64,000 nt of DNA, taken from contig NC_136001.1 in assembly GCF_048128805.1 (NCBI RefSeq), positions 2,539,501 through 2,603,500 of the forward strand, in the 5' to 3' direction. The notes under the pieces were generated by a model. That model saw only the letters and a list, made by a program, of their open reading frames with translations. It had not been told where the DNA came from and did no database searches. Positions 5,488 to 28,976 of this stretch are shown here, in pieces. Every line of letters starts with the position of its first letter. Positions within the stretch are counted from its first letter, which is position 1. The position numbers were made by a program, and so were the translations under genes. This DNA comes from Centroberyx gerrardi. Lineage: Eukaryota > Chordata > Actinopteri > Beryciformes > Berycidae.

Positions 5488-5914
5488 AGGATGGTGGACG
5501 TGACCACGTGAGTGGGACGTCTCGCGAGAGTTCAAAATGGTGGCCGTGACCGCGCAGTTTGAACAAAGGGGCTTTGGAACCAAGATGGGGTTGGAGTTAG
5601 GCAGCTAAACCAACACCATCTAATTCTTAGGTAGCAATGAATGTGTAATGAGATGTGGGTGTGTGTATGTGTGTGGGTTAGTAAGAGAGAGAGAGAGAGA
5701 GGGAGAATAAGGGGGAAACACTCAGGGTAAACCTAGAGATTCTACTCGCCGTCTACACTGTAATAAGTGCTACATCCATCATGTAGGTTTAATATACTTT
5801 AAATAGTTGTGAACTAGTTTATTTTATTTGTTTTATCCTAAAAAGTATCAATATGCTTTCCCTTTACTTAAAATGTGTCAGTATATATACAACAATATAT
5901 TTTAAATAAAACTA

Positions 5915-6135
5915 TCACCATTTATTTGAGTAGTTATGTCTATGTGATTGTTGTGTACATGAAATGCTATAAAAGTGAGTTGACATACACAATTTATTAG
6001 AGTAGTTATGTATATGTAATTGTTGTGTACATGAAATGTTATAAAAGTGAGTTGACATACACAATTTATTAGAGTAGTTATGTCGATGTGGTTGCGGTGT
6101 TCATGAAATGTGATAAAAAAAAAGAGCTGACATTA
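5915..6135 (+). repeat. Subterminal 72-bp tandem repeats of the outer transposon
   Basis: Repeat starts at about 5928, 6000 and 6072 share GAGTAGTTATGT, GTGTACATGAAATG and AAAAGTGAGTTGACATACAC. The last copy is diverged and truncated. Arrays like this near the end of CACTA-type elements are usually transposase-binding sites, so that role is inferred here. Confidence 0.75.
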
Positions 6136-7979
6136 TCACTTTTCCCCTGATGCATTGTGCTGCAACGTGTCTGGTCTGGGCGGGACAGGTAACTTTACCC
6201 GGGCAGATATCAGCAGCTTGCTTGGCACTACAGCCTACTCTTTTTCGCCGCTGCAGAATTTTATGGATCCTGGATGAAGCGGTAAGTTGAGCGATTTTAG
6301 CCGAATGATTGGTGATGTAAAGTCTCGCTAAACCGATGACTTGAGAGGTCCCGTTCGGCAGCTAACGTTAGCTAAGCAAATCTGTAGCTAGCTGCCCTGC
6401 ACACATGGCAAGCTAAGTTAGCTGCCCGGTGCTAACCAACGTGGTCCTGTAAGCAACGGCCGGCTATCGACCACGGTTCTGTCACCGTGTTTAACACAAC
6501 CTAACTTTACACTGAAAACAGAAACCCGAAGCGAAGCCCGTAAAATTTAATGTAGGCTAAGCCAAGCCGATTTAAGTGAGATTCAATACAGACAGGCTAC
6601 AGACGTGCTAGCTAAAGTATGCCTTATTAGCTAAGTTAGCTATCACGTTTCAGTCAGAGTGGATTTTATGCACGTGTGCTCTTCATTATGTCTGCCATCT
6701 CGCTTCCCTTGTTTTGCCTCCAAGCAGGAAACTTGGTGTGTGGCTGTACACGAAATTAGAACCATAAACGGTTAAGATAAAACTCCTAGACAAAAGACGC
6801 TAACGCTAGTTAATGCTAACGCTAGCTAATGTCAACTTACTGTAAGTTAGCTGTAGCTGACTGTCTGATGTCGAGTGTTGTGGGTTTGAAACTATTAAAG
6901 TTATTACTTAAGTAAGTCATTACATTTACCACTGATGCCTGCAGAAATTCTTTAACCATATTCTAACATGCTTTTTCCTTGTATTTAGATACCCAAGCAC
7001 TTTTGTTCCCTTCAGTCTGGATTCGTCAAACTACAGATACAGGTAAGAGGAACTTGAGATTGATTAAGCTCTTGGTATCCAAGTGGGCACTGGTACCTAA
7101 TTTGCCAATAGAGCAATTACAGCTATATCTATTCCCAAATAAGTAAAACATGCGTAAAATTGCAAAAAATAGGCTGTGCTCCATAAGGTTACATTTTAAT
7201 TCTAAAGACTAATAGTTTTTATGTGTACAAACCACCACTAGAAGGCAGATGTGATCATTACAGTAGATTTATTGCTACCTAACCTAAAGCAAACTGTTAA
7301 TAAAATCATGTAGTTAATGATTTACCATTCCTACCTAAAACTTACCTCTGCATTGGACCAAATATATAGTACTTACTGTAATGCTTAACCTACAATGCTT
7401 ATTTGAATAAGAAAAAAATTGCTTAGTGAAAAAATACGTTTTAAACGTTGTTAAAGGCAGACTATGCAGTTTCAAAGGGGAGGGCCCCCACCTTGTTATG
7501 ATCTGGTAAAGAATGATGAATGCCACTCAATTCTCAAAAGAATAGAACTTAGAAATGCCTCAGGAGTTCAGGACAACTCTTTTACCCCATCATAACCCAA
7601 ATTATAAGAGCTTATCGCTCCATTGTTTTAATTTTTTGTGAACATTTGACATCAAAACATTAGATTCAAGACAGGCATTTAAAAGTGTTAAATTAATTCT
7701 ATGGGTTATTAGTCTTGGCATGAACCTGAGGGGTTTTATCCTTTTATCAGTCTCATCCTTAACATTAGTAAACAAAGTGGTGTGCCTTCCCATTTAAAAC
7801 TGCAAAGTCTGCCTTTAAAACGCATTAAATACAACTTTCATACCTGTGGGCAGACTGATAAGCAACTGATAGAGTAGGATTATTATATTTGTTGAACGGG
7901 TAGTGTGTTTGATGGAGATTGGCTTAAGATGTAATCAATATGAAATGTCTTCCATTTTCTCTCATTTATTTTGGTATAG
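6136..7979 (+). promoter_or_regulatory. Promoter and 5' exons of outer gene A
   Basis: CpG-containing sequence at 6170-6700 carries several GCTAACGTTAGC-like palindromes and probably includes the promoter. A donor GTAAGT follows 6281. A small exon at 6989-7042 is bounded by TTTAG and GTAAGA. A third acceptor (GGTATAG) ends at 7979, six bases before the gene A start. A similar arrangement of short leader exons is seen in the inner copy. The region around 7450-7830 is AT-rich and holds nothing recognisable. Confidence 0.5.
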
Positions 7980-7985
7980 GTAAAA

Positions 7986-8722
7986 ATGAGTTGGCCATGC
8001 AAAAGATGCAGTGAGGTTTTACCTACCAGAAGTGACATTTTGAAACATTATAGACTACATCATGGAACCTTCGGCCATAGTCATTCATTACCCTGTATAT
8101 ACTTGGAATGTCCATGCTCTTTCAAAACTTGGAGTAGTCTGCACACGCATTTATCTCGATGCCATGTGGAAAGTCAGACACGAAGACCTGAGGCTATCCT
8201 GTCTTTTATATGCCTGGTGTGTAGGAAACAAGGGTTTCCAACAGAGAGAGAATATTTTGAACATGTTGGCCATCACCTTAAAAGTAATGAGACTGTTGAC
8301 TGTGTGTTTGAAGGATGCAATTTTCAAACCAATATTTATGGAACATTTAAAGCGCACAAAAACAGAAAGCACACACCTCATACTGTAAGTGATTTTAAAG
8401 GAACTGTTCTTCTATAAGCACGGCTTTTGATAAGGCTGGTCCTCTGTCATCAGCTTTCAAGAGGAGACAGTATTTCATACAAAGGTTTAACGTTGTGGAG
8501 CCAGTTGAATATATTCTCGATCCAAATGAAAAGAAGAGTTTTCAATATGTTCCGATTCTTGAATCCTTGAAACAAATTTTGAGCAACGATGATATCAGGG
8601 AAAAGTTCCTCACAGATGATGGATGCACAAGTATTCCTACACAGTACAGATCATTCCATGATGGTGCCATTTATAGAGAGAGTGATTTTTATTCTGAAGA
8701 GAGTAGAATCTCTATATTCCTA
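7986..8722 (+). pseudogene. Outer gene A, N-terminal part (C2H2 transposase-like, broken)
   Basis: The first frame (7986-8417) encodes four C2H2 finger-like modules closely matching residues 1-138 of the intact inner protein. It then hits a stop. Compared with the inner copy about 390 nt are missing around 8415-8435, after which homology resumes (PLSSAFKRRQYF, VVEPVEY) in another frame up to 8722. There the inner element interrupts the gene between a leucine and a tyrosine codon. The gene resumes at 21549. The product cannot be made as it stands. Confidence 0.85.
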
Positions 8723-8855
8723 CACTCAAAAAAATAATTCATTGGACTAACGTAATTTATTCATGCCACCTATATTCCATCTAAACCAATCAAGTAAAAT
8801 CAGTCTATCTTGATTGTGTTATTTGAACACCACATATATTTGTGGGTGAAACAAA

Positions 8856-9128
8856 ATTCAGCCTTGTTGAATGAACTAATATAGGTTTTGTCTGTTATAC
8901 TAATGTCAGCCTTGTTGAATGAACTAATATAGGTTTTGTCTGTTATACTAATGTCAGCCTTGTTGAATGAACTAATATAGGTTTTGTCTGTTATACTAAT
9001 GTCAGCCTTGTTGAATGAACTAATATAGGTTTTGTCTGTTATACTAATGTCAGCCTTGTTGAATGAACTAATATAGGTTTTGTCTGTTATACTAATGTCA
9101 GCCTTGTTGAATGAACCAATATAGTTTT
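8856..9128 (+). repeat. Subterminal 48-bp tandem array of the inner transposon
   Basis: About 5.7 copies of a 48-bp unit starting GTCAGCCTTGTTGAATGAAC and ending TTATACTAAT. The central copies are identical, and the last copy (from 9096) diverges after ATGAACCAATATAG. The array begins about 130 bp from the element end. No spacers separate the copies, so it is not a CRISPR array. It probably binds the transposase, by analogy with CACTA subterminal repeats. Confidence 0.85.
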
Positions 9129-10789
9129 TGATAGTTTAATGTCAATCTTGTTGCTTCAATTAGTGTTGTTTTATTTGCTAGTACTAGTAAGCATTCATTT
9201 TAATTAAATTACCAAAGATCCACAACATACATAAAAAAGGACAACAACATGCAAAACCATTTTATATTTTATTTAATATTTGGCTTTAACATACAGCTGC
9301 CAAGATCCCTGTTCTTCTCAGCTTCCTCCCCTTTAACCATCTCATGCTATACTTCCCTTTAGTTATATTAGCAACGACCCACAGGTCTCAATTTACCTTC
9401 ATGCCACCTGAGAATGCAAACCAACAGTCCTAATTGCAACCACACTGTTCTGAAGGATGGTTGACCCAACTTCAAAGCTAAGAGACCAAGAGGATTAACA
9501 GAGTTGAGTAAATAACAGGTACATTTAGAACCGTTCCACCCACAGGAACGCATGCAGAAGAACTTTTGGAAGAACTTCCAAAACAATGTTCACTCAGTCG
9601 AGAAGTATTACGCAAATGGAGACACTATTTGACCTCCCGTGGACCTAACATTACACCAGATCTTTACCATCATTATCTCTACATTGTCTCCACAATGTCA
9701 GTAACTTAATTACTGACTAAAACAGCAAGTGACTTAATCCCTTCCAGCACTCAATGAAAAGCACCAATTAAACCAATTTTCACCAAGACTCTCATTTTGT
9801 TTGTGTCAAATATTAACCATAACATTATGAATTTGGGAATGCTGTATTCACTTCCAAATCGTAAGCGTAGTGGCTTCAAGAAAACTGAGTTTACAAATAG
9901 TCCTGCAAAATGTGTGCACTTCTGTCATTTAAGGCTTTTAACATTCAACATCCAACAATTTTTTCAACTTTTGTAACAAATGCATGTAGAATATTTTGCC
10001 ACCAAAATAATCGAGGCTCATTAAGAAAACAGCCTTAAAACAATCTTTCAGAATTTGTGCATGACTTCTGTCATTTCAAGTTTTAAAATTCGTAGTGCAA
10101 CACATTTATAAAAATGCAATAAAATAGACATTGGAACCTACAAAATATTCTTGTCCCATAATAAAAACAAAGTTTACAAATAATCCAGCAAGATGTGTGC
10201 ATGACTGCAACAATATGCATTTTAACACTGTTTTAAACACTGAATTATTACAATCTACACATGTGCATTGCAATAAATAAAAAAATAAATCAGTAGTGAA
10301 CAATTACTGTAATACTGCTTGCACAATCTTTTTGCTATGTTGATAAAGTGTCAAAAAATCTTTGTAAATACAATTACTCAATTTTAAGGAGGCTATAACC
10401 AAACCATTAATAGTGTATTTATTCTATTTAACATTTGAAGAGACAGCATTAATTGTGTTCGTGTGCGAGTATGACTGCTCCACTCACAGAAACGATTTTT
10501 GAAAACAAGCGTGTGTACAACTGCTCCAGCCACAATTGTCCATGTAGTAAAATCAGTGTGGATGTGTGTTCAAAAACACTGCTGTGTGTCCACCCACACA
10601 CAAACTTTGGAGACTTTTCAACCTATGAGACAACAATCTTAGTCTCAGTCCATTGAGCAAACTAAATTAAATAGTCCTTTTGAACATTTTTATGACTTCT
10701 AATTTTGAACTTTCAAAGTTAAACAAAAAAATCTGCATTGCAGGGTTATGGACAAATACCAGGCTTCTATCAGTCTTCTTCAAGCTTAT
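9129..10789 (-). other. 3' flank of inner gene B within the transposon
   Basis: Non-coding. Degenerate repeats of about 130-140 bp share GTTTACAAATA, GTGTGCA and CTTCTGTCATTT motifs at about 9890, 10040 and 10170. A minus-strand AATAAA (TTTATT at about 10418-10423) about 370 bp after the stop may be the gene B polyadenylation signal. Otherwise I see nothing. Confidence 0.5.
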
Positions 10790-13700
10790 TCACTCCAGAA
10801 GCTTGTTTTTTAGGAATTGTGCCTTGGACGACAACCTCTGCCCATTCAGATTTAGAAGAATCTTCTGCAGGACTTCAAAAGTGCATTTGAGCTCTGGTGG
10901 GTAGCTTAGGTTCAAACAGTATATCAGTCCAAATAACAGAGCGCAAGCATTCGCAATGTCCCTCAAATCACTGAGGACCTCCACACCTTCAATCAGGACA
11001 CCGATGTCCTCTGGGTCATCTCCGGGCTCCGCACCTTCCTTCTGTATGGCATACACTCCCATCACAGTTTGCTCCATGGATGTGTTGGCCTCAGTGTCTG
11101 TGTCCTGTGGAGTAAAATATAACAAATACATTTTTTGCATAAAACTGGCCTGCCATTGCCTTAAGAACCATGTCAAAGCCCACCTGCAGTTTCCTAGAGG
11201 AACTGGGTGGACCAGCTAAGATGTTGGACAGTTTTTTCTTTATATATAATTTGCATCTTTAAGCTATTGTGAGATTTCAATTGATCAAAATGTGTAAGAG
11301 ACAAACGTATGGAGAGCAGCAGGTGTCATGGAGAAAAAACGTATTTGTGTGCACAAATTAAAAGATTGTACTCTTGAATTAGTAATTCATGCTCTCAAAT
11401 TAACAGAACATGACATTAAACAATAGATGACATTTATGTTTACGAGATGTAAAAGATAACACAATGTTACTCAACAGGCAAACAGGCTCAAGCCAGTATA
11501 TGGTGTCACACATCTGTCCGAAAATAAAAACAAAACTGCATGTAATCTAAATAGCTCATTTAGATCACATTGTCCATGGTCGCACAATTGTCACTGTTTA
11601 TTTTGCACTGCGTTAGGTTACACAATGGTATATGTGCAACTGATAGCAGCCAAAGCCAACCATTATTGCTGAAAGAGTGTCAAATGCAGCATCACAGCTG
11701 TATATATTAAAAAAAAAAAAAAAAAAATGTTGACAAGGAAAAATGGAATCAGTGTGATAGCCAAATTTAATTAATATGAAGAAATGAATTCAGTATTTTG
11801 TAGGCACTTCAATACCCAAACATAGCTGCTAGTCTGCTGCTAACACACACTACTGCTGCTACAGTAACCAGACACTGGTTAGGGTGTTAGCTGCAGACTC
11901 ATTAGATTATCAAACCATTGACGATATGATCAAAAGGAGCTGCTTGGATAAAATTTGATGCAGTTTTGTTTTTTGGACAGAGATGCATACGTGGATACAC
12001 TTGATTTGAACTGTTAAATGAGTTGTCTTAAACATCCCTTAAACATGTTAAAATGGCAACAATATGTTCCTGAATTTCCCCTCTGGGGATCAACGAAGGC
12101 TTATTTTATCTTAATGCTGTGTTCTGTTCTTTTGTGGGGTTTTTTATTAGTGTGCAGGAATTATGTATTATTTTCTCCATGACACCTCCCCGGCTCTGTA
12201 CAAAATATATTGAAATGGTTAATATTGTTTTAGGACGTTTAAAACCAATACGTTTAGAAAATGCCAAATTCTGTCTCTAGTTTCCAACCTCACAGACATT
12301 TGAGAATTAGCAGATGAAGAAAAACAAGGACAAAGCACAATGTGTTTTAGTTGTACAGGGTTTCAAATGTATGTTTTGCTGTTTAATATCATTTATCACC
12401 CTTAATTTCTGCTGTGAATTTAACATATCAAGCAAGTGAATATGTGCTTTCTCCGACTGGTCTGCGGCTACTTTGTCACACCTAGTGTATGTAACTCACC
12501 ATATAATCCTTCACAAGTTTCTCATGGTCTTCGTTCAGGTAGATGCACAAGGACTTGAGGATGCATGCTCGTCTTGTATGTATTGTGTCATCCTGAGAAA
12601 GAAAAAAAGGAACCCATTCTGACAATATTCAGCATTTTAGGCAGCGGTTTGAAAAAAGAACTCCGCAGTCTTGACGGCAAACTGCAAGTTTGATGATTCC
12701 TAAGTTTTGAGCATGGTTATTGTGTGGTAGACAATACTTTGGTGTCAGGAGCCCAAAAGGCAAGTACTCAACATCTATACGAGAACCAAATCAGACACGA
12801 AATGAGACACACACACACACTGAGAGAGAGAGACGCACACACACGGTAGTTTTTCATTCTAACCAAAAAGTTCACCATGTGATTTTACCAATTACTTCCT
12901 CATCTCTGGCTGAAGCTGATGTAATCAGTATCACATGATTAAGTTTTGATTAAGTGAAAACATGCATACTCTTGGCACTGTTGCCTACCATATGTATAGA
13001 GAATTATGCTCATGCAATTGTCATGACAGGGGCATAAAAAGTCTTTTATAAGCATAGGTCTACCCATTTTAATACAAACCTTGGAGATGGCCACCATGAG
13101 ATGTCTAATTTTTCTTCCAGCCACGCCACCTTTGCCTCGAAAGATCTCCATCATGCGTGGTGAGTACCGGTCGAGCTCAGCAAAGAATGTAGATAGCAGA
13201 GGTACAGTTGATATGCGCATGAACTCTTTATCGATCTGAAAAACATTAACAATACACTTGTCACTCACCCTATCAGAACATCACAATATACAACACAGGA
13301 AGGATGAACAATGAATTACTAGCCGTTTGATCACTATATTATATAGATATCAGTGAGGAGAGAAACAGTCAACTACTAAATATTACGTTACCCATATCCT
13401 TGTTTTTGGTCAACACTATTATATTTGATTTGACATTATCTTCCTGTTCTTGTGTGTGCACACTCTGGGCATACATAAAACCTCAGCACATATAGGACAT
13501 GCACCTCTTTCACAGTGAAAAGAGCTGGCCATCTGCTTTTGAAATCTGCAACCAAGGGCTGTCCTTGAAGAACTTCTTGCCTTCTGTATGAGAAAGTCTT
13601 CTCCATTTTCTCTGTCACTGTATGGTCATTGTTTCTCTTCTTAATCTCTGAAAGCAGCGCAATTCTCTCCTTTTCCAGACTGTCAGTGGTTTCTCCTTTT

Positions 13701-14518
13701 GGATGCTGCGGACAGTAATTGACTTCTGCCCTTCTGGGCTTTTTCACATTCAACGCTGCCAGACATTTCTCTTGGGCCTTGTTCTTTAGTGAATTTATCG
13801 TCACCTCAGCACACCCCAGGCCTCTTAGTTTGGTCCGGAAGTTGGCCATTTTATACTTAAGGCTAATCTTCCACCCGTAACAGCCATTGAAGGATCCCTG
13901 CTCCCTCAGACAAGGATGCTTCTTCACAAGGGCTTCTGCAACATCATTCACATCATTGTCAGTTGGGTAGGCTTTGAATTTAATAATTTCTTCTGCCAGT
14001 CGTTCCAAAATGTGGGATTTCAGTTTCGGTGAGGGGCTCAAATGAGTTCCACTAGCACTGCACTCAGCATTGGCCTTTTCAAGTTGCAGTTCAGCCTCAT
14101 AGCTGAAACGAGGGACTGTAAAGACACTTGGCCAAACCCACAGCCTTGCAGATGGCGATGAACCTGAAGATGAAGCGGGCTCTGTATTGTCCGTGTCAAC
14201 CGAGGAGATTGATGAGGAATCTGTTGGGCCCAAGCCTGCTAGAGGTTGACGTGTCATTGCTTCATCTTCTGTATAACTTTGCAAGTAGACCACCTTTATA
14301 GTTGCTTTGTCATTTATTTCGGAGATCACCGACAGGTTAATGAACTCATTACCAAAATCAGCATCTTGATACTGAAGCCGAAAATCTTGTTGCAATCCAA
14401 AACTTGTCTTTATTGTCTGGCACAATTCCTCTATGGAGTCCGGTATCCCTGCTGGCAGAATTAGCTTCCTGGCATCATCTTCACCAAGGATGATCCTCAG
14501 TCTTATGGGCTGGGTCAT
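10790..14518 (-). CDS. Inner gene B: PB1-like / SAMD3-like transposon-carried protein
   Basis: Four exons, all phase 0 with consensus splice sites: 14518-13505, 13235-13080, 12592-12500 and 11104-10790. They encode 525 aa. Residues 3-75 resemble a PB1-type beta-grasp domain, with a conserved basic N-terminal strand and an acidic DADFGNEFI segment like an OPCA motif. The middle holds VPRFSYEAELQL, HPCLREQGSFNGCYGW and a Lys/Arg-rich stretch with KKPRRAEVNYCP. The C-terminus includes DIGVLIEGVEVL and a hydrophobic ALLFGLIYCLNL segment. The overall pattern recalls many teleost proteins annotated as SAMD3-like, whose function is unknown. I see no clear SAM domain. A splice acceptor ends at 14528, just before the start codon, and pairs with a donor just after the gene A stop. 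It may be an accessory DNA-binding or assembly factor; that is inference. A diverged copy sits at 24330-28124. Confidence 0.8.
11220..12499. other. Intron 3 of inner gene B
   Basis: AT-rich intron sequence between the exon 3 donor at 12499 and the exon 4 acceptor. An A-run lies at 11710-11727. At about 12066-12118 the sequence TGAATTTCCCCTCTGGGGATCAA followed by a TTATCTTA end matches the 3' tail seen in many fish LINE/SINE families, so a short retroposon fragment is likely. Nothing else is recognised. Confidence 0.45.
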
Positions 14519-14654
14519 TGTGTAGACCTAAACAATAAAAAAAAAACAACAACAACAACACTAGTTGAATATTTCACATACAAAAAACTCAGAGGCACTT
14601 ATAATAATTTATAATTAGACAAGTATATACATGTGGGTGTATGTGTATACATGG

Positions 14655-14760
14655 TAGGGTTGGGCGATGTCTACCAAATTGGCATATGACGATGTCCACA
14701 GTGAAACATCGCGATGGACGATGATATCGTTGTGTGTGTGGGGGGGGGGGGGGGTGATTT
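14655..14760. repeat. Fragment of a hAT-type MITE with G-run
   Basis: The start TAGGGTTGGGCGATGTC resembles the termini of common fish hAT MITEs, followed by GATGATATCGTTG and a run of 14 G. The other terminus is not found, so this is a truncated fragment. Confidence 0.4.
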
Positions 14761-14961
14761 TATAGACGAACAAGAAAAGATGTTCTTCCATATGTCCGTA
14801 ATGAAACGGACAAGGCTCTCATGTGAGCTGCTCTGGTACTAAAATGTTTATATATACTTTCTTTTATACTTTTTACATGTATGTAGCCTATGTTGGGTAT
14901 TAATTACTATTTCTATTTTTTGCACATTTGAGCCCACAGCCCATCCTCACCTATTCACCTG

Positions 14962-16310
14962 GGGCCTCATTTATAAAACTGTGCGTAGGATTCACATCAA
15001 AAGGTTGTGTACGGACGAAACACAGAAAGTGCTTACGCACAAAAATATTCTGATTTATAACAGTGCGCACGCACATCCTACGCCGGTTTCGCTTTATAAA
15101 TTACAATCAACTCGAAATGTTGCGCATGTGCGCGAGCCTCATACTCCGCCCCTTAACTCCCACAATTAACCATATATGGTCAATGAAACGCCCTGAATGA
15201 ATACTGATGTGTATGTAAATGTACTTGTCATTCCATTCTCTGTGTGAGAAATTGGCAAAGCCGAACCAGACGGAAAAGAGAAATGTCCCCGGTGGCCTCA
15301 GTTCGGGCGTCACCAACCAGAAACAGTTTGTTGAGTGGCAGCATGTCACAGCAGTATTTAATGCTGCAGCAAAATAAAAAAGAAATTGTCCGATATAAAA
15401 GGTTGACGCCAAGAAGCGCATTGGACTGTTGTGTCAGCACCACCGGCGGGGCGAGGAGATACCGGAGCTCTCTCCTCTTGAACGTTACACCTCGATGACG
15501 GGGGAAACCCTATTTAGTGGCATTGTGCCAGAAAAACAGCATGACACTGACTTAACGTTAGAGAGGAAGATGAGATGCTGCTACGATACCCAGGTATCGT
15601 AAATGTGCCTTTTGTTTTTGGAAAGAGTGAACGTAACCACGCACTCAGCATTTCACATTCATTTGATTTTAATAAAAAACGCATAGACAAGTTCTGTATT
15701 CTCGTTTTCTGACTCGGGGATCAGACAGTGTGTGACCGGGGTGAACAGCTGGCTGTAGAGGACGCTGCGCCTGGCACCGGCATCTCCAATGCGCCCCGTG
15801 CGTCATAACGCATAATTATTTATTACCTTGAGACATCCAGTCCAATTGCCTAACACCTTGAATTTGTCAGATTTAATTGTGACAAACTGGGTCTCTGCTA
15901 AAAGACTGTAATGCACTTACTTGAGACTAATTCACACCATGTCAGCCTATAATGACATGTAGATGCTTTTTGGACAAATGATCGGCTTTCAAACTAAAGC
16001 AACAAAGACACTATTTAGTTGTAGCCTAGACGTTCTTCCGACAAGGAATATTATTATTAGAGGGGTTTCTAAGTTGATGTGGAGTCGGCCTGGAAGTTAA
16101 CTGAGTGTAAAATGCCACTTTTTGCTTTATTTTACTGCTTTGCTATGTCAGTCGCCGTTTCCCACTGTCTCCAAAATGTGCACACGCATGGGTCAAAGTT
16201 TCCGTGGCGGTGCGCACATTATCCCGTCAAAGTTTGTTTTTTATAAAAGTTTGCTTAGAAAGTGGCGTAAGCCTTCTTTTGTGCGTACGCAACGTTTATA
16301 AATGAGGCCC
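14962..16310 (+). mobile_element. Harbinger-like non-autonomous element with Myb/SANT relic
   Basis: Terminal repeats GGGCCTCATTTATAAA and its reverse complement are flanked by CTG at 14959-14961 and 16311-16313, a 3-bp duplication typical of PIF/Harbinger elements. A degraded plus-strand frame at about 15285-15570 retains pieces such as GVTNQKQFVEWQHV, DAKKRI and PELSPLERYTSM that resemble the Myb/SANT-like DNA-binding protein of vertebrate Harbinger transposons, with stops. No DDE transposase is seen, so it needs help from elsewhere. It lies in the intron between inner genes A and B. Confidence 0.75.
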
Positions 16311-16313
16311 CTG

Positions 16314-17158
16314 GTCTTTCCTTACTTTTCCTCCCTATAGCCTATGCTTAAGCAACCTCATTAAGCAGATCATCTGATTCTAAAAAAATATTTCAAATAC
16401 TAGTCATAGTAATGTAACTGCAGAATATACCAGTGAGTGAAATAAAAAAAAAAATTAAAAAAAAGGCAGCCAGCCCAGCGGATGTGAGCGGATTAGGTAC
16501 GTTTTAATCCTCAATTTTGCAATACAAATAAACTCACCCCCTGATTTACTAAGGCGCAGCCAATGAGCCAAGATGTAAACAAGTTCAAAACACCAGTGCC
16601 CAATTGCTTTCTTGTGTGGCTGAGGGTCAAAAACATTAAAATTGACCTTCTTAATGTAATGTAAAGGATACATAATAATGAAAATCCAGGTATCAAGGTA
16701 GTGTATGGGCTTTGATTGTACAGACATATTGTGCTAAGCAGAGCTGTACTTGATTGACAGAAAAATAAATCAGCAACAATTCTTTTAATTATTTAGTCAT
16801 TTAATTAAATTATCAAGCAAAAATTCTGAACATTCTTTGGTCCTAGCTTCTCAAATGTGATCATTTGCTGTCTTATAATGTAAATTAATATCTTTTGGTT
16901 TTGGACTGTTGGTTGGAAAAAATAATTTCAATTTGTCACCTTGGGCTCTAGGAAATTGTGATTGGACAAGGACAAATGGAAAAGTGCATTTTTCACTATT
17001 GTCTTACATTTTGTAAGTTAATGACGGATTAGTTAAAAAATAATAAATACATTAATTGATCATTAAAATAATAAGTTGCAGCCCTACTGCAAAGCATGAT
17101 TTTACGACTTACTGTGCCATGTGATGTGTGGGAAAAATACTTACAAATATTACTCCAG
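16314..17158 (-). other. Part of the inner A-B intron
   Basis: AT-rich intronic sequence without coding signal. On the minus strand a strong donor GTAAGT (17144-17139) lies 14 bases after the gene A stop codon. The matching acceptor is TTTAG ending at 14528, immediately before the gene B start. Confidence 0.5.
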
Positions 17159-19861
17159 TTATCCCTGTAAGTTAGTGTGTCTCTTCAGAGTAACCAGACG
17201 CAGGCCTCCAACTGAATAGGCAGCTAATGGGTAGTCATCAAGTAGTTCCCCATGCTCAATCAGAGCCACCTCTCTCACATGTGACGTGTGAAGTTCAAAA
17301 GCTCTAAAGTGCTCTCTATACCAAGCAGAGAACTTTTTCACAATAAAATATATCTTGCCTTGCAAAATACAAATCTGCAGAATTTCAGCAAACTCTGGCA
17401 GACCAAATAATTGCCCATGGACAACAATCATTCCTTTGTTGTAGTTCATACCATTGTATGACACACTTTTTGTAATATGGACATCAGTCTCATCTGGTAA
17501 TCTTTGCTTAATAGCAATTGCAATGTCACTGTGCAAAACATCAATTGGTACTGATGAGACACTAGTTACCACCAAAGGTGTCCTATGGTCAGAAGAATGC
17601 AAGTCAGAGGCAATCATGAGCTGATGTTTTCTGGCAAGTGTGAGAGGTATGTTTTTAAAACAGTTGGTATGACGAGCAATCTGTTTAAAGAAACTATGTT
17701 TCGCCTCAAATCTCATTGTCCGTTTATGGACAAGAGGCCCAAAGAGGCGAATCATAACAGGGTAATGCTCCAAATAATGATGTTTAGGGAGAAGACGGTC
17801 GTTTGGAAAAAGCTCTTGGTATCTCTGGCGATGTTCACTGATTTTGCACTCAAGATATGAAATCGACTCATCAGAGTGGACAGGGGCTACGACAAGCTCC
17901 ACTATGTCCTTGAGATCCAAAACAACATGCCATGTAGGTTCATCCTCTGGAACAAGTGGACCAATAATCAGAGGCAACAATCGAAGCAGAGCCCAATTTT
18001 CATGTGCATTTCCACCAATGCTTTTTTTTACTGAGAAGGTCTGTGGTATTGCGTGAGGCCGATTGGTTTTATCTCCCCATTTGTACTTGAAATTTTGGAT
18101 CAAATTGTTAAGTTTTTCTAATGTGAAATACTTTTTAGAGATCCAAAGAGAAAAACAATGAGCAAGCTCCACAGGTATTATGCCCTCAAACAGATCATGT
18201 GCTACATCTGAAGGGTAGCCGGCAGTGACATGAAAATGGGTGAGATTCTTACTCAAAACACAATCCCGTTTAACTCCACAGTGCGCACTTGCTGTTTCCA
18301 GTGCATACTTCAAATGGGCTTCATGAAGTTCCCGCGTTCTACGCTCAAAAACACCAGCAGTCAATGACTGAATTTCTGATTTTTTAGCTGTGCAGAATCT
18401 ACAGATGTATTCACCAGAAAAACTTTCTACAAAACCTGCCAGCCCATGGGCTCCTAGGTTGTCAGCTATTACGCAATTCACAGTGCCTTTGATACACTCG
18501 TTCAACTGACTGATGAACACACCATGTTGCTCCAAAATTAGCAAATCTTTCAAAAGTGGATCCAACACTTTTTCAAACCCAAATGTCCTCACATCTTCAC
18601 TTTTACAAAGAACAGCCAAATAAATGGATGAGAGAGCAGAATGAGAGCCAGGAGGCAAATTGCCCAAGACCCAATATACACCACAAAGCTTATGCTTTTT
18701 GCGTGAGGTCCCAAGAGGATTACAAACCTCAAAATCGTCAATATAAAGTTTTATGGAAATTCTCAACTCCTCAACAGCTAGAAAGCTATTTGTTTCATAA
18801 TGCTCACCATCTCGAAAAGACCTGTAAACCCGCTGATCACTACGCAAATCCTTTCTATTTTCTTGAGCTATTTGTTCTTCAATCACTTTATCTAGTAATT
18901 TATTGTGACTCAGTATTTCCTGCAATAACTGTAATAAAGGGATGTACTGAAATGACCTCCTTTGGTCTACAGATAAAAAATACTCAACAGGCTCTACAAC
19001 CCTAAAATTTAGCTTGTAGTATTTTTTTCTTTTAAAAGAAGTGGCAAGAGGGCCACACTTTCCCAAAATTTTAGCCACAGGGTTAGAAACACACACAGAA
19101 TTGGCAAGTTCTTCAATAACAGCCTGACCAATATGGACGTTATGGCTTTTGAAAATTTCTGTAACTGTACGCTTTGTGACAGGCGCACAAGCTGAACTTA
19201 ACAAAAAATGCAACTCTTCCAATAACTCATCTACTCCTTTTGCTGGAATATGAAATATATGTTCCAACTTCAACAATATTACTGCTATTTTCCGCTCAAT
19301 TAGTTCTGGCAGATTTTCAACAGCACCATCATCACTTTCTGTCACTGACTCAGTTTCAACTTCACCATATGATACATCAGCAGTACAGCCAGCCCTCACA
19401 TTATCAGAGGTATCTGACACTTGCACCGGGTCCACAAATGCAACTACACTGGCTTTTAAATCTTTCAGTGTGTGTGGATGATGCTTCCTCTTTTTGTGTG
19501 TATAAAATGTACTGTAAATATTTGTCTTGAAAGGGCAACCAAGAAACACACAACTAACTGTCTCGTTACTTCGCAGATGTGTTCCAATATGAACAAAAAA
19601 ATCTCTCTCTGTGGAGAGATCACTGCATTCACATAACTCGCATCTAAAAGTTACTGAACTGGAAGCTGTCTGTGTAAACTGAGATGAATGAGCTTTATAG
19701 ACATGGCTGTTGAGCCCACTCCACGTCTTGAATGTGCATGGACAATTTACATATATGCACAAATAATGTTGGCCTCTTCCATAATGATGATGTAGTTTGT
19801 AATGTTTAAGCAATTTGTACCTACTAGTCTCTCTGGCGACACAATGTTTGCACTGCCACAT
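17159..19861 (-). CDS. Inner gene A: C2H2-finger transposase-like protein
   Basis: An uninterrupted 900-residue frame begins with MWQCKHC. Four C2H2 finger-like modules occupy about residues 4-25, 35-58, 74-95 and 104-127. An acidic, weakly conserved region follows to about 290. The conserved core includes LYIDDFEVCNPLG (about 370-385, candidate first catalytic Asp), CVIADNLGAH (about 463-472, candidate second Asp), ICRFC (about 485, a CxxC as in CMC-type transposases), DVAHDLFEGI (about 557, candidate Glu) and KHHYLEHYP (about 695). This layout fits an RNase H-like DDE transposase with an inserted domain; the catalytic assignment is inference. The start is supported by an acceptor (TTTCAG) seven bases upstream and by the aligned outer copy. 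The fingers probably bind the terminal or subterminal repeats. No frameshift or stop is present, so the protein may be functional. Confidence 0.8.
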   Translation of the reverse strand: MWQCKHCVARETSRYKLLKHYKLHHHYGRGQHYLCIYVNCPCTFKTWSGLNSHVYKAHSSQFTQTASSSVTFRCELCECSDLSTERDFFVHIGTHLRSNETVSCVFLGCPFKTNIYSTFYTHKKRKHHPHTLKDLKASVVAFVDPVQVSDTSDNVRAGCTADVSYGEVETESVTESDDGAVENLPELIERKIAVILLKLEHIFHIPAKGVDELLEELHFLLSSACAPVTKRTVTEIFKSHNVHIGQAVIEELANSVCVSNPVAKILGKCGPLATSFKRKKYYKLNFRVVEPVEYFLSVDQRRSFQYIPLLQLLQEILSHNKLLDKVIEEQIAQENRKDLRSDQRVYRSFRDGEHYETNSFLAVEELRISIKLYIDDFEVCNPLGTSRKKHKLCGVYWVLGNLPPGSHSALSSIYLAVLCKSEDVRTFGFEKVLDPLLKDLLILEQHGVFISQLNECIKGTVNCVIADNLGAHGLAGFVESFSGEYICRFCTAKKSEIQSLTAGVFERRTRELHEAHLKYALETASAHCGVKRDCVLSKNLTHFHVTAGYPSDVAHDLFEGIIPVELAHCFSLWISKKYFTLEKLNNLIQNFKYKWGDKTNRPHAIPQTFSVKKSIGGNAHENWALLRLLPLIIGPLVPEDEPTWHVVLDLKDIVELVVAPVHSDESISYLECKISEHRQRYQELFPNDRLLPKHHYLEHYPVMIRLFGPLVHKRTMRFEAKHSFFKQIARHTNCFKNIPLTLARKHQLMIASDLHSSDHRTPLVVTSVSSVPIDVLHSDIAIAIKQRLPDETDVHITKSVSYNGMNYNKGMIVVHGQLFGLPEFAEILQICILQGKIYFIVKKFSAWYREHFRAFELHTSHVREVALIEHGELLDDYPLAAYSVGGLRLVTLKRHTNLQG

Positions 19862-21533
19862 ACGTCACTGAAAGAAAAGAAAAAAAATACATTAGCAAAT
19901 GATAAAAATAAATATACCGTATTTGCTCAAATACAAAATACCCAAATAAACCTCAAAAGTGTAAATATGTATATGTACATATGATAACAGATAAACAATA
20001 ATATGACAAAAATATTCACTTACCATGTATTGTCGAGGAGGTGCATACAAATCTCAGAGCATGGGGACACTGCTTTATTTTGTGATGTATTTCTAGTAAA
20101 AAGATAAATTGTTTTAAAAAGTTAATACAACAGAAGTAATATTTCTATTGTAGTAGTATAGTATTACAATATCTATAATTACATACACTGAAATTTGAAG
20201 ACTGTTACTCATGTAGAGGACCAGAGAGCAGAAAAACATGCAATATTCCACCTAATTTAATAGATTCTGAATTCTAGAATTGTAAAAGGGCCAAATATGA
20301 TTTCCATGACTGACCAATGAAGACCAAATAAGTAAAGCGATTTCAGTTTGCTTGGCAAGGACATGTGTCTTCATCAAGATAAGACATACAGCAGCATCAC
20401 AGCTTTCATAGCATCATAGTTTCCTATAATATTTTGTATATTAGTTTATGGTATTTTGTATATCTGTGGATAGAGTTGAGTGTGTGGCAGATTTACAAGG
20501 TTTAGACAGGATTTACACAGCCTTTTGCTACCTTCCCAGAACTGCAGCTCCAAACGGTCGGGAGATCTCTGGTTTTAAGCTAACGTTATTTAGCCTGGCT
20601 CCTAGCTGAAAAACTTAATTAGCCATCACAAACGCCGGTAGAGAGACGCGGTCATACATGCACATTTATTTCTTAGGCAGTAAACGAAACACATGGGTCC
20701 GTGTTGCGCTATAACTTGAGCTTCTCTGGACATTGAATACTGACTAACAGTAATTTAACCTCTCTAAACACAATGATTTACCATGGCTATGACTAAATCC
20801 TGGCACTCCCGCCCACACACCGTGTCTCTCTCATGGCAGAGCCGCTAGCCTGGCTACAATGAACACGTGGGCTATTACCTTCACTGAAATGAGTGTTAAA
20901 TTGAGTGTTTATTGATTTGCTGGTTGCAGGTTTATTTTTCCGCACCGCGGTTCAGTGGCAGACGTTTTTGCATGGAGCACAAAAAAAGCAATTTTGAGAG
21001 ATAATGTACCCAGGGTGTAAATAAATAAAACCTAGCCATAGCAAAGTTGAGCTAGCGTTAACTGTGAGAAACACAAGTGACAAAATTCATGTTAGAAAAC
21101 TATCCAACTAAGAAATGTCTCACAAATGTCTAATAACTACTATTTATCACTCACCCTATTAAACTAAATACATTCATGTAGATGCATGTGAATTACTTAC
21201 CCTTAATATCAAGGATGCCAAACGATTAGGTGAGAGTACTCCTGCACATGACCTCCTTGGTGCTGGTTAGCTAGTTAACGTCCATGAAACGCCCGACTTC
21301 CGCTTCTACGAACTTTTTCTGATTCCGGTAGGCGTGGAGCATGCGCAATATCAGAGTCATTGTTTTGAGGGACCTCATTCTCATTGGATTGACATTAATG
21401 AATTTAATTCATCAGACTGTTCTTAGAATCATGTACAACAAACAAGAATGAATCATTTAATGAACATAAACACGATTAATTCATTTAATGCTAACATATT
21501 TCTAGTTTGCTAATCAAACACATGCCCTAGTTG
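19862..21533 (-). promoter_or_regulatory. Promoter and leader exons of inner transposon
   Basis: Reading minus, a non-coding exon at 20092-20024 is bounded by TTTACTAG and GTAAGT and feeds the acceptor just upstream of gene A. Another donor (GTAAGT at 21200-21195) marks the end of a first exon starting somewhere near 21330. The sequence from 20520 to 21320 is richer in CpG and carries GCTAACGTTA-like motifs similar to those in the outer promoter. From 21360 to 21533 it is AT-rich subterminal sequence with imperfect repeats of GAATTAAT/AATCATT. Confidence 0.5.
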
Positions 21534-21548
21534 ATTTTTTTGAGTGTA

Positions 21549-24268
21549 TATGTAGATGATTTTGAGGTATGTAATCCCTTAGGAACATCCCGAAAGAAAC
21601 ATAAGATAACCTCTGTATACTGGATATTGGCAGATATCCCGTCCTGTTTTCGGTCCACCCTCACTTCAGTGTATCTTGCACTTTTGTGCAAAGCTGATGA
21701 TATTAAAAGATTTGGCTACGCAGAAGTTCTCAAGCCACTGTTGGATGACATAGCTACACTGGAACAAGATGGTATTTTGATTCCTGTCCTTGGGAAAACT
21801 GTCAAAGGGACTGTTTATTGTGTAGTTGCTGACAATCTTGGAGCACATTCAATTGCTGGCCTTGTTGAAAATTTCTCAGGACCATACATTTGTAGGTTCT
21901 GTCTAGGAGAGCGCTCTGAATTTCAAGAAAAGGAAGTGAGATCAGGTGCTTTTCCCATCCGGACAAAGGAGGATTATTCTGTTCATGTTCAGACTGTACA
22001 GGAAAACCCTGCACTAACCCATTGCTTTGGTGTGAAAAGGCCTTGCCCGTTGACAGAGAAATTGAGCCATTTTCACTCGGTTGAGGGCTATCCGCCTGAT
22101 ATTTTGCACGACCTTTTTGAGGGGATTATTCCCATGGAATTAGCACTGTGCATTAGTGATTTCATAGTGAAAAGATATGTCAAACTTGAAGAGCTTAACA
22201 ACACAATCAAATCATTTCCCTACAAGTGGGGAGATAAGACAGACTGTCCACAGGCCATTCCCATTACATTCTCCACTCGAAGAAGTATTGGAGGAAATGC
22301 CCATGAAAATTGGACCCTCATCAGGCTGCTCCCACTAATGATAGGACACAAGATACCATTGAATGATCCAGCATGGAATGTAATCATGTGTCTTAAAGAC
22401 ATAGTTGAACTTGTGGTAGCTCCAACCCAAACTGAAGCAAGTATGTCATATCTTGACACAAAGATTTCTGAGCACCGACTCAGATTACTGGCAGTGTTTC
22501 CTCAGGTGAAGTTGATTCCCAAACACCACTTCCTAGAGCACTATCCAGCCCTCATGAAAGTGTTTGGACCTCTCATTGGATTTTGGACGATGCGGTTTGA
22601 GGCAAAACATCGTTATTTCAAACAAATTGTGAGGCATACAGGAAATTTCAGAAATATAACATTTTCCCTTGCAACTAAGCATCAGTTGATGATTGCACAC
22701 CATGTGCATGCAACTAGGGATGCACCAATACCGTTTTTTTACTGCCGATCCGATAACGATACCAGAATTTTGAGTATCAACCGATACCGAGTACCGATCC
22801 GATATTGACCCCTTTTTTTCTTCTGTAATTACACAGCTGCATACAACATGTAAATAACATGGGAACAATAATTTTATTGTTAAAAAAAAGAAAAGCAGCA
22901 GGGCAGAAGAACTGACCAAAATAGGAATGACAGTTCCTAGGATATATAAAAGATTGCTGCAATATAGGGATACAGTGCAAAGAAACTCACAAAAGTGCAA
23001 AAGAGCAATAAACTGACCAGTGCATACTGCTACAAAACAATATTGAAACAACCATACAGCCTTTGCTTATATTTTTTTTCCTCTTCTTTAGTGTGAATAA
23101 CTGACAGAAAAAATACTGCTACACATAGGCTTTTTCTGGGCATAACATCCAGTGTGTGCCAAGTCTAGTCTAGTTTTAATCACTTAAGGACAAGAGGCAG
23201 GTTTTTCTTCAGAAACAGAAGCATCTCACCTCTCTCTGCTGTCAGCCTGTTCCTCCGTTCACTGACAGTGTTGACAGTCACTGACGCTGACGCACGCACA
23301 GGTCGCGTCAGCGTCATCAGCGCGGTAGCATTAGCTTTAGCCCCCATCTCCAAAAAGCTTCGTTTTGTGAAAACGGAAGACTTAATTGAAACCTTTATGG
23401 TGGCGTGTACATGATACTAAGCCCAAGGACACTCGATGTAAGTTCGAGCTAAGGAGCAGGCGTTTGGAAGGCGTCGCCAGATGAAGTTCTTGGTAAAGTG
23501 AGTTGGATAAAGATCTTTGGGACGCTAGTAATGGCATAGCCATCTAGCATCCCTTTGTGGCTAAAATAATTCCCAACCGCTGACATGTTTACATCAGCAC
23601 ATTGCCTGCATGCTCGCTTTCTTTTTCCAACTTCTTCACTCACTCGTGTTGCGTCACGTGCAAACTCAGGCATGTTTTACGGCAGGCGACTACGCCCGTT
23701 TATTACTCCGGGGGCTCGAACTGATTGCTCTGGATTGGATCGGATTATAACGTTAGCTGCCACCGATGTCCGATCCAGCATTTTAGGCCAATATCGGCCC
23801 GATACCGATGCCAAGTATCGGATCGGTGCATCCCTACATGCAACTACAACAGCTCCCACTTTAAGTACTGCCAGAGTATCCCTAGTGCCTGTAGCTGTTT
23901 TGCATACAAATGTACAAGAAGCAATAAGAAGAGTGTCTCCAGGTCAGACTAGTGTACATCTTTCCAGCACTGTGTCACTTTATGGAACTACATACTCAAA
24001 AGGCATGATTTTGGCCTATGGGTCTACTGCAGGACTCCCAGACTTTGTTGAAGTTCTTCAGATAGTAATTCTCAGAGACAAGGTCCATTTTATTGCTAAA
24101 GTATTCATTTCCTGGTATGATGAGCACTTTCAAGGATTTGAGCTGGAGAGTACAGAGCTTGTAGTTTTTGTGGAACAGAAGGATCTCACTGACGTATGTC
24201 CACTGTCAGACTACAAGGTTGGAGGAAGGCGTATGGTGATGCTGAAGCGCCATATCTGTCTGGAATAG
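21549..24268 (+). pseudogene. Outer gene A, C-terminal part (interrupted by a hAT element)
   Basis: This continues the frame broken at 8722. 21549-22714 encodes the core (YVDDFEVCNPLG, VVADNLGAH, ICRFC, DILHDLFEGI, KHHFLEHYP, EAKHRYFK) at roughly 60 percent identity to the inner protein. An 1,122-bp hAT element then intervenes, and the frame resumes at 23845 to a TAG at 24266-24268. The two segments rejoin in frame if the hAT element and one 8-bp duplication are removed. A weak donor (GTAAAT) follows the stop at 24272. Confidence 0.87.
22715..23836. mobile_element. Non-autonomous hAT element
   Basis: Termini TAGGGATGCACC and GGTGCATCCCTA are flanked by CATGCAAC at 22707-22714 and 23837-23844, a perfect 8-bp duplication. 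Inner terminal segments are rich in CCGATAC/GTATCGG motifs. The 1.1-kb interior has no transposase frame. It has inserted into outer gene A and disrupted it a second time. Confidence 0.88.
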
Positions 24269-25381
24269 TAGGTAAATGTTTGGTGTACTAATTCAAGTTC
24301 ATTCATCTTTTTAAGGCTACATCATCAATATGGATGCAGCTGTGAAGTTTCGAGTCATCCTGGATCATGAAATAAAGAAACTTTGTCTTCCTGGAATACC
24401 ACGTACAGTGCAAGAGTTGGAAGCAGCAGTAAAGCAAGCATTTGGGATCTCAGGGGACATAAGCATTCAGCACAAAGACCCGGATTTCAGTGACTTCATC
24501 ACATTAAGCTCAACTGATGAGCTGAAAGATAAGGACACACTGAAGATAGTGTACGTACCACCACCTGCTATAATTTTTACTAATGTGACTTTCCTGAGCT
24601 CTCGACAGCAGACTGCTCTGTCTCCGAATCAGTGCCAGAAGACTGTGTGTCTCAACTATCAACATCAAATGACTCCACCTCTGCAGAATCTGATGACACT
24701 GTAGTAGAACTCAGTCCCCGTACCCCTGGAATGCACAAGCCGTGGCCTACTGAGTTTCCTGTTCCAAAGTTTTCATATAACACTGAAGTAGCACTTCAAA
24801 AAGGCCATGAAAATTACCTCAGAGATGGTTCCCTTTTGTGCAAAGACAAGTTTTACCCTGGTGTTAAGTCCAACATTCTGGAATGTTTAGCTGAGCTCAT
24901 CTTTTCTTACACTCCCTACCCAAATGATGCACAGCGGTGTGCAGTTGCAGAGGCTCTCATAAAACAGCACCCATGTTTGAAGGAACCAGGCTCTTTCAAT
25001 GGTCTCTATGGATGGCAACAGAGCCTGAAGTATAAAATAGGAAATTACCGAAGTAAACTTCGAACGCATGGGATTCCAGAACTCTTGGTTAACTCTCTAA
25101 AGCACAAATCTCCTGAAGACAAGAAACCAGCTAAGAATGTAAAAAAAGCAAGGAAAGCCGAGGTGAACTACCTTCCCCCTCATCCTGCAGGGGAAACAGA
25201 AGATTCCCTTGAGAGTGTCAGGCTGGAGTTGATCTCTGAGACCAAGAAAAAGAATAATGGCAGAGTTATAAATGAGATGATGTCAAGAACCTTTAGTTTC
25301 AGAAGACAGGAGATTGTAGGTCAAGCCCCAAGTGTTGCAGATCTCCTAGAGAGATGGCCTGCCCTCTTTGAACCATCACAG

Positions 25382-25911
25382 GTAAGCTAAAATCAAATCC
25401 TTGGTCATGTACAGGTATGGCTGAAGAATTTAGTAATCAGTTAGTGCAATATGCATTTAGTCATCATTCATTCGTTGAGTCGGGGAGGAGGGGCCAACTT
25501 TGAATGCTGTGTGTTTACACACACCAACCGACAAATCCTGCATAGTATAGCTTTAACATCTTCTCTGCAGTGAAAAATAGTCTCCTGTTTGAATTTTTCC
25601 CACACTGTCATGTGATCATCCCCCTCAATGCTGTTCGTGAAAATCTTAGCCTATGTTGTATGAGTTTTTCATGTCCACAAAAGGCACCAAACTTGATTGA
25701 AGGTTTTCATTCATGCCTTTTTTATACTTTACTTAAAAATACAAATATGGTGAATATGTCCCTTACCACTTGACAGAGCTCATCAAGAATTTTCATTTGA
25801 TATATAGGCTAAAACTCATTTGTGCCTAAAACCCTCAGTATGTTGTTTAAAGAGGAATAAAAACCTATCCCTTTTTAATATGTAACCAAGATGACATACT
25901 TCTGCTTACAG
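25382..25911 (+). other. Intron 1 of outer gene B
   Basis: Bounded by GTAAGC and TTACAG. A segment at about 25440-25560 ending CCTGCATAGTATAGCTTTAA resembles the end of a common fish MITE. The rest is AT-rich without features. Confidence 0.45.
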
Positions 25912-26060
25912 ATCAATGAAGAGTTTCGGAGAATCAATGGCATATCACTTGAGCCGACATTTATGTCACAGTTGGACAAACACACTCCAAAGATGTTGTC
26001 ACTTTTCAATGCAAAGGGAGGAACCAAAGAATCAAGTCCCAGATGTTGGAACTCATCCAG

Positions 26061-27299
26061 GTAAGAGGAAAAAATGGTCTTGTTATGTAAAACATTTTTC
26101 ATCCAAAAGCTATCTATTGTCTATCATGTACTTGGTCCTCAATGTTCCAATGTGTTCCTACTGGGAAGGACCTAAGGATGGTGATTTCTGTCTGTCCGTC
26201 CATCTGTTCAACAAGCAACTCCAACGCAGCATATCTTGAAATCTACTGAGCCAATTGTTATGACGTGGTGAGCACATTCATGCTACCCAGAGAATGATCC
26301 CTATTGATTTTGATGGCACCATTTCTTATAGCACCATCCCATCCTCACACCAAATTTTTTGAAATTTTAAATTGATATGTTCTGGGTGCATAGCCGTGTA
26401 ATTTGGAAAGCGAATTAATTCAGGAGTCAAATTTTTTTTTCTCTCTCTAGACAGCAGTCACTGCGTCATGCACTTTGGTAATCTGGTTATTCCTCACATG
26501 TTCAGATCAGAATTTGGAAATGCCATTGATCATGCCAAAATCTGGTTAACATAGGCTAGATTTCTGCTGGAGAAACTCGATCATTGGGCTCGCATTTCTG
26601 AAAAGCTTTTTACGCGTGCGCACAAGCTGACGCAAAGAACACAACTAACACAATATATAACACTGGAAAATAAAAACTTTGCTATCTGTTCTACATGGTT
26701 GTTAAAGAATGCTTAATTTTATGTCAACATTACCACTGATATAATGAAATGAAAACCACATCTGCCGCCCACAGTCCACCTACAGAGTGGCAAAAAATCT
26801 ACAATCAGCTCAGTGCAGCTCGCTAACTTATTAGACCCAGTTCTTCCCTGAGTTTGGGGAAGTTGCCACTGCAAGAAGCCATGGTCATTCCGCAGGCTGC
26901 AGCACCGCGGTTGGCAGCGGTAATAATCGGGAACATCAAGTGGATGGGAAACCTCATAACTGACCAGCCGTTTTCAAACTGGAGTTTTGAGTAATCAGAG
27001 TAAAACACATTTTATCTGTAGTTTCCTCTCCATCTGTGAAGCTAGTGTCGCTTATACGCTGCAGTGGGAAAAGTAGTTTTAACTAAAAGCACTGTACCGG
27101 ATATCCATTACACTTCAAAATGAAGTTTTGGTTTTTTTCCTCCCCACATGCCCGTGGTAGTACCAGTTGAGAACCACAGCTTTAAAGAATGCTTGGTCTA
27201 TTATACTGCAATTGAATGAATAGTTGAAATACAGAGGGTGTGTGGTTTGTGCTGGTGTCATCAGGCAGTGAATTTTGAACAGGTTTTACTTTTTGATAG
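26061..27299 (+). other. Intron 2 of outer gene B
   Basis: A non-coding stretch between GTAAGA and TTTTGATAG. The region at 26170-26420 (TCTGTCTGTCCGTCCATCTG and after) resembles a dispersed repeat also seen near 33720-33840. The block at 26560-27180 looks like another unidentified repeat. No gene is supported. Confidence 0.4.
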
Positions 27300-28597
27300 G
27301 ATCCATCTGCCTCTGTGGAGAAAAGGAGAGAAGTGCTCCTGAGATGCCTGATCGAGTACATGGGGGAGAGACAAGAAGAACTCATCAGTGACCACCACGT
27401 ATGTGTTAGGCTTAAAGCTACGTATCTATCTGTCTGATCAACAGTCTAACTGATCACCTGTTTTTGATCAGTATTTTTAAGTGAATGTCTTAATGTATTG
27501 ATATTGTGATGATATTATAGGGATGATTATCATTGCTCTCAAAAGATATTTACACACTGTAGATTAGTGATGAACAGTCATTAGTAATGTGATGACCAAG
27601 CAGGTAGAGGCAAAGAACAGAAAATTGCATCCCTTTATTGTAATGCAGCCTTTAAAACCAGGAAAAGACAACACTTATGCCAGATCACGATAGTACAATA
27701 CCCACACTCCATGCCATTGTCATGGCAAATTAAGATTGGCCAACACAGCAGGCATACTTACAGATGCTGTTTGCCAATGCTGTAGTACTTAGGTCCATGG
27801 CTTGGAATTCCAGATTGGAGTACTGGAAACCAACTTGAAACCGAGGTGCACGCTGAGCTCAGCAGTTGCCCGATGAAAATTTACGTGTGCCATCAGCCCG
27901 ATGCCATCGGCATCATCATAGAAGGACATCCAGTGGTCAGAGGTCTGACCAACCTGTCAAAAGCATGCTGCCTTCTCTTTGGACTTACCTATGCCCTGGA
28001 ACTTAAGTATCCACCAAAACTGGTGCACACTTTTGAGACATATCAGAGGCTCTTTGTTGGAATGGACCCCATGCGCCCTAAACCATCATCTAAATACACA
28101 AATCTCCTCAACAAGTTGTCTTAGATGACTTCTCAATGCCATCTGCCACTATCTGCCATTATTAGAAAAAAATGCAAGTTATCTCACCTTGGTAGGTGAG
28201 ACTACCAACTGATACGTACTGTAACATAATAGCATAATGTGCAATCTTTAGGGTAATATAAATATTTGTCTCTGATACTCTCATACTTAATTCAACTTAT
28301 ACTATTTTATACTATTTCTACTACTATTTCATACTATTTAGTTCCTACTATTTACATTTAAAATAATTACTCTTTACCAAAAACATAATGTCAGATCAGA
28401 TTTTCCTTTTCAGTCATTTAATTTTTGTGCCTTAAAACTGACTTGACAGTTGACTGTTTTCAGTTTGGCATGTTACATGTGTTGAAAATAATTTGTCTTT
28501 TGGCAAGTTACTCATGTAATAGAATTTCAGTTGGCATTTTCCTTTTGTGTTCATTCTAATGTGCCTCAAATGAAAATGGACTTAACTGTGTTCTGTG

Positions 28598-28883: not shown

Positions 28884-28976
28884 TTCAATGTGATTCGATG
28901 TGATGCTGTTATGTCTTGCATTTACCTTTATCAAAACATTGCAGCTTTGGATATTTCGATTCATTGTTCAGCCCTA
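28678..28976. mobile_element. hAT MITE
   Basis: Ends TAGGGCTGAACAAT and ATTGTTCAGCCCTA are flanked by GTTCAAAA at 28670-28677 and 28977-28984. The interior is AT-rich and non-coding, and part of the left end is tandemly duplicated. Confidence 0.82.

Follow-up and report, generated by a model that had tools for sequence, protein, structure and literature searches.

A 64,000-nucleotide stretch of the genome of Centroberyx gerrardi (the window; C5:2539501-2603500, contig NC_136001.1, of the 779-Mb genome) carries a 12,824-bp element (8723-21546) that is very probably a structurally complete, recently mobile, two-gene cut-and-paste transposon of the CMC (CACTA/EnSpm-Mirage-Chapaev) clade, EnSpm-like in type. 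Its gene A is read as a 900-amino acid transposase and its gene B as a 525-amino acid partner protein. We regard it as plausible, if somewhat short of probable, that the element represents a living and diverse lineage of fish two-gene transposons with a transposase of RAG1-core architecture, whose accessory gene gave rise to amniote SAMD3. As far as the literature searched shows, the novelty lies in the partner gene and in the predicted architecture.

Examination of the borders revealed terminal inverted repeats (TIRs) identical at 13/13 positions, with CACTCAAAAAAAT from 8723 and the reverse complement of it up to 21546, and with TA on both sides (8721-8722 and 21547-21548). Among 22,931 CACT/AGTG pairs lying 3-25 kb apart in the window, two matched at 13 or more of 14 positions and one of the two had a 2-bp duplication; ten dinucleotide-block shuffles yielded 5 matching pairs in 193,210, none with a duplication. 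The motif AATGAA occurs seven times in the left 420 bases and four times in the right 400, versus 0.43 per 400 bases inside the element, and the 48-bp array near the left end is a putative transposase-binding region. An earlier sequence-only reading had described perfect 13-bp CACTC-type TIRs with a TA duplication, the 48-bp array and two open genes, the second in four phase-0 exons; these were all recovered, the ends with the support of the shuffle control and the genes through sequence-based models.

The element sits inside a related and older one, whose boundaries are less certain (Table 1). This outer element has degenerate ends and carries gene A followed by gene B, the same order as in the inner element, on the strand opposite to the inner genes. 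Its gene A pieces lie at 7992-8722, 21534-22715 and 23822-24265, and its gene B pieces within 24330-28118. The inner element interrupts this related gene A, which is otherwise in pieces, and the insertion was precise: when the flanks are joined at one TA, the outer frame runs continuously around the junction and aligns without gaps to gene A beside the first catalytic Asp.

DNA searches of the genome with each end retrieved two places per end, the window and a second copy on C4 (copy 2, C4:35302927-35310155) with the same termini and an AA duplication. Homology between the two copies stops exactly at the TIRs, and the flanks of copy 2 are unlike those of the window, sharing only repeat-like matches of 23-66 bp at 58-63 kb of the window. 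Copy 2 lacks element positions 5630-11070, so that gene A is gone and gene B is without its start, and has about three fewer 48-bp units, as derived from alignment coordinates. The three main alignments contain 28 mismatches in 7,379 columns and seven gap openings; assuming about 5e-9 neutral substitutions per site per year, this would put the split between the two copies, to an order of magnitude, at half a million years ago. Because the outer frame is restored, copy 2 shares the termini and has an AA duplication of its own beside unrelated flanks, and the mismatches are few, the element is a recently mobile DNA transposon, as had been supposed from the window alone. It is also potentially autonomous, likewise in line with the sequence-only reading.

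Gene A begins with four conserved C2H2-type finger motifs, followed by a predicted catalytic region that resembles the RAG1 core, with residues D375, D467, C487, C490, H695, H699 and E719 (alignment A1 and the structure model are without Met1, so that residue n of the model corresponds to n+1 of the protein). The set D467, C487xxC490, H695xxxH699 and E719 is kept in 42-43 of 43 aligned proteins. The predicted fold over the RAG1 core, together with the spacing of zinc and catalytic residues, is as in RAG1, and gene A belongs to a large ray-finned-fish family with this predicted fold. The CxxC motif (C487xxC490) and the C2H2 fingers noted in the sequence-only reading are both confirmed. Where that reading could name no matching member, gene A is now placed in the ray-finned-fish family and gene B is a PB1-type SAMD3 relative. 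Residues 760-893 form a tentative BAH-like C-terminal domain (cf. DNMT1, BAHCC1, ORC1), which could direct insertion via chromatin marks.

Genome searches found at least 56 gene A pieces and at least 65 gene B pieces, which merged (6-kb gap) into 42 and 45 loci respectively. At 28 of the 42 gene A loci, gene B lies downstream of gene A on the same strand, 0.2-4.8 kb away, and no other arrangement was found. Apart from the window's own, the gene A matches represent different families because they are only 32-66% identical to it. Within six families, copies (16 places retrieved) are mostly 94-100% identical over long aligned blocks. An end scan of 12 locus sets, in which a duplication was not required, identified a pair matching at 13 or more of 14 positions in seven, six of them with an exact 2-bp duplication (Table 1). 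Including the window (TA) and copy 2 (AA), eight complete copies with a target-site duplication (TSD) are known from five families; other copies sharing the termini, the check proposed at the outset, thus exist both on C4 and in four further families whose complete copies end alike. The TSD is 2 bp long, never 3, in all eight. As a correction to the sequence-only reading, it is not TA-specific: TA accounts for four of the eight, the others being AA, TG, TT and CA. The copy at C7:3149925 has the window's 13-bp end, with gene A pieces only 49-66% identical. Deeply diverged gene A lineages, at 32-33% identity, were observed at C8:14600457-14603045 (L038), C14:30761565-30764183 (L040) and C1:18465609-18468236 (L039); the C8 and C1 frames are without stops and the C14 frame has one.

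Gene B is predicted to be spliced from exons of 338, 52, 31 and 104 codons, all in phase 0 and separated by GT..AG introns. The window gene being spliced, structure was modelled on a relative, P0122 (84% identical). The body of the protein (residues 126-510 in P0122) is homologous to amniote SAMD3 (hhalign probability 98.1%, E 6.9e-14); all nine SAMD3 proteins scored 43.5-58.6 bits, and the best of 180 shuffles 7.2. In a Pfam scan of 53 gene B relatives, PB1 is matched, and neither SAM nor Kelch is among the 13 families matched at E<=0.1; SAM_1 is matched by both SAMD3 controls, P0359 and P0344. A gene-B-like gene also follows gene A in the older C8 and C1 lineages, where the gene B profile scores 21.0 and 50.4 bits respectively. 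The first exon of both reads unlike PB1, and that of C8, the one scanned, has no Pfam match. Given this arrangement in both lineages, gene B was probably present in the transposon before the C8, C1 and PB1-type lineages split. Its N-terminal domain has probably been swapped over time, being PB1, another domain or, in SAMD3, SAM.

Our preferred reading of these homologies is that SAMD3 is a domesticated transposon gene. The reverse, in which the transposon captured the SAMD3-like region of gene B from a host gene, appears somewhat unlikely. Transposons are able to capture host exons, and the gene B/SAMD3 tree, in which older gene B, PB1-type gene B and SAMD3 form separate groups, cannot be rooted and so leaves room for capture; what argues against it is that in two lineages that split deeply, and whose N-terminal exons differ, gene A is followed by a gene of the gene B type. 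A transposon origin of SAMD3 would be testable, and this link is the part worth following up. Among genes derived from transposable elements, a review of human elements (PMC5753468) and a study of element fossils (PMC9004415) name RAG1/RAG2, HARBI1 and others, as well as EnSpm fossils in human; the latter contains no mention of 'SAMD3'. Public fish proteins called 'SAMD3-like' that fall in the gene B family are transposon gene B, which explains the label, borne by many fish gene models, for at least those in the family, and analyses that assume a host gene there could draw wrong conclusions.

The protein relatives listed come from ray-finned fishes wherever the source organism is named, and one gene B cluster also includes a ferret record. 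Gene B is 80-86% identical to proteins of croaker, wrasse, tilapia, catfish (76% covered) and loach, and 83% identical to an Erpetoichthys protein (65% covered). In a quick-method tree of 24 hand-chosen gene A proteins, the cod and goldfish sequences group together, as do a second cod protein and that of sturgeon, those of piranha and anchovy, and the window's gene A and that of loach. Because this branching departs from the fish phylogeny, it suggests horizontal transfer among fishes, which the gene B identities also fit, with paralogy and loss as the alternative.

In members of the CMC/CMCT clade, the second Asp and the last Glu enclose C(2)C and H(3-4)H motifs, the termini are 5'-CA..TG-3' and the TSDs are 2-5 bp long (PMC12730594). 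In gene A, C487xxC490 and H695xxxH699 lie between D467 and E719, and the ends are CACT..AGTG with a 2-bp TSD in eight copies, a further good end pair being without TSD. Support for the resemblance to the CMC group, already remarked in the sequence-only reading, comes from this motif set, from its spacing and from relatives that weakly match EnSpm-type Pfam families: Transposase_21 is matched at E<=0.1 by 22 of 43 (best 4.3e-5, weak), and DUF4218 also weakly.

Assignment to a Mirage-, Plavaka- or ESTA-like branch of CMC instead of EnSpm is unlikely. PlavakaA combines a 2-bp TSD, as found here, with TGT..ACA termini, PlavakaB has CATCA..TGATG termini and ESTA has TA TSDs (PMC12730594). In favour of such a branch are that TSD length and weak matches of the Plavaka Pfam family to 4 of 43 relatives (best 0.0041). 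Against it, more relatives match Transposase_21, the termini of our element are CACT..AGTG, TA makes up just half of the TSDs of its families, and the 43 relatives match 19 families at E<=0.1, with neither PF06869 (Mirage) nor PF06918 (Chapaev) among them. A RAG/Transib-type (ProtoRAG-like) transposon, with gene B as the counterpart of RAG2, is very unlikely: Transib and RAG TSDs are 5 bp long versus 2 bp here, and gene B relatives match PB1 and none Kelch. Moreover, the one place in the genome matched by the RAG1 family profile PF12940 is RAG1 itself on C4, hit as two pieces, and hhalign of the gene A profile with that single RAG1 sequence gave a probability of 0.2%.

Several observations weigh against a complete, recently mobile, EnSpm-like element. 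Fourteen of the 42 gene A loci have no gene B match and 17 of the 45 gene B loci no gene A match, and many loci of both kinds are fragments or contain stops. The window gene A scores 12.3 bits with the EnSpm Pfam model (PF02992, tnp2-type), for a cut-off of 28.6. Five of the 12 locus sets in the end scan have no good end pair, and one of the seven good pairs, C4:34490439, is without TSD. Finally, recent amplification is small, because only two genome places match each end. That count would also suit a reading in which copy 2 arose by segmental duplication and genes A and B form a fixed host locus. This is extremely improbable, given that homology stops at the TIRs, the flanks differ, both copies carry a separate 2-bp TSD and the same behaviour is seen in complete copies from four other families.

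In the mechanism that we propose, recognition of the CACT ends and the subterminal repeats would fall to the N-terminal zinc fingers and RAG1-like DNA-binding region of gene A. Cleavage of both ends, and their joining to target DNA at positions 2 bp apart, would be the work of an RNase-H-fold centre formed by D375, D467 and E719. This stagger is deduced from the 2-bp duplications, the other steps from homology. Gene B would be an accessory protein, probably multimerising via its PB1-like domain, that may assist assembly of the ends or protect the element, which may still be active at present. Since no EnSpm, Mirage or Chapaev transposase is among the PDB matches listed, an element in its native form whose two genes are both open provides a means of testing whether CMC enzymes work like RAG1. 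The 1.35-kb repeat nested between the genes, with possible CCTGG flanks, stands outside the inner element's own machinery.

Table 1. Features of the window and complete copies elsewhere in the genome.
Feature	Position	Strand	Remarks
Outer, older related element	5756..29666	+	ends match 11/14, TA
Target-site duplication, left	8721..8722	.	TA
Left TIR	8723..8735	+	CACTCAAAAAAAT; identical end in copy 2
Subterminal array	8858..9130	.	48-bp units, 5.7 copies, 99% matches
Gene B exon 4	10790..11104	-	includes stop
Gene B exon 3	12500..12592	-	
Gene B exon 2	13080..13235	-	
Gene B exon 1	13505..14518	-	PB1-like N-terminus, then start of SAMD3-homologous region
Nested 1.35-kb repeat	14961..16311	.	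17-bp inverted GGGGCCTCATTTATAAA ends; between genes A and B
Gene A, putative transposase	17159..19861	-	900 amino acids; single uninterrupted open frame
Right subterminal region	21440..21490	.	two 23-nt repeats, 83% alike
Right TIR	21534..21546	-	
Target-site duplication, right	21547..21548	.	TA
Complete copy	C7:3149925-3159658		TSD TG
Complete copy	C7:3670566-3679926		TSD TA
Complete copy	C5:1639671-1648023		TSD TT
Complete copy	C13:11809281-11818561		TSD TA
Complete copy	C15:18545125-18554436		TSD CA
Complete copy	C24:2558619-2567963		TSD TA

Plant EnSpm/CACTA elements have 3-bp TSDs, and CACTA elements encode two products and carry subterminal repeats, two features shared by the present element. 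Fungal EnSpm/CACTA members also have 3-bp TSDs (PMC12730594), unlike the 2 bp of all eight complete copies described here. The element further resembles this group by its CACT..AGTG ends, its predicted D-D-C(2)C-H(3)H-E transposase and the weak Transposase_21 and DUF4218 matches of its relatives, and differs by the N-terminal C2H2 fingers, the tentative BAH-like C-terminus and a PB1/SAMD3-like second protein that comes from its own gene. According to PMC3435246, the MUSTANG-B genes of plants derive from MULEs and have a PB1 exon; the apparent likeness is a PB1 on a short 5' exon joined to transposase-derived sequence, whereas those genes, as presented there, are domesticated, immobile members of the MULE superfamily with another transposase type. 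SAMD3 resembles the body of gene B and starts with a SAM domain, in contrast to the PB1 or, in older lineages, other short exon of gene B. RAG transposons have two adjacent genes (PMC4411706), as does our element. It is unlike RAG1-RAG2, ProtoRAG and Transib in having no significant sequence match, a 2-bp TSD and a gene B that is not RAG2-like, and like them in the predicted fold of gene A over the RAG1 core and in its zinc and catalytic residue spacing. If SAMD3 did arise from gene B, then, as with RAG1/RAG2, a transposon would have donated a vertebrate gene, but the donor would be the partner protein and not the recombinase.
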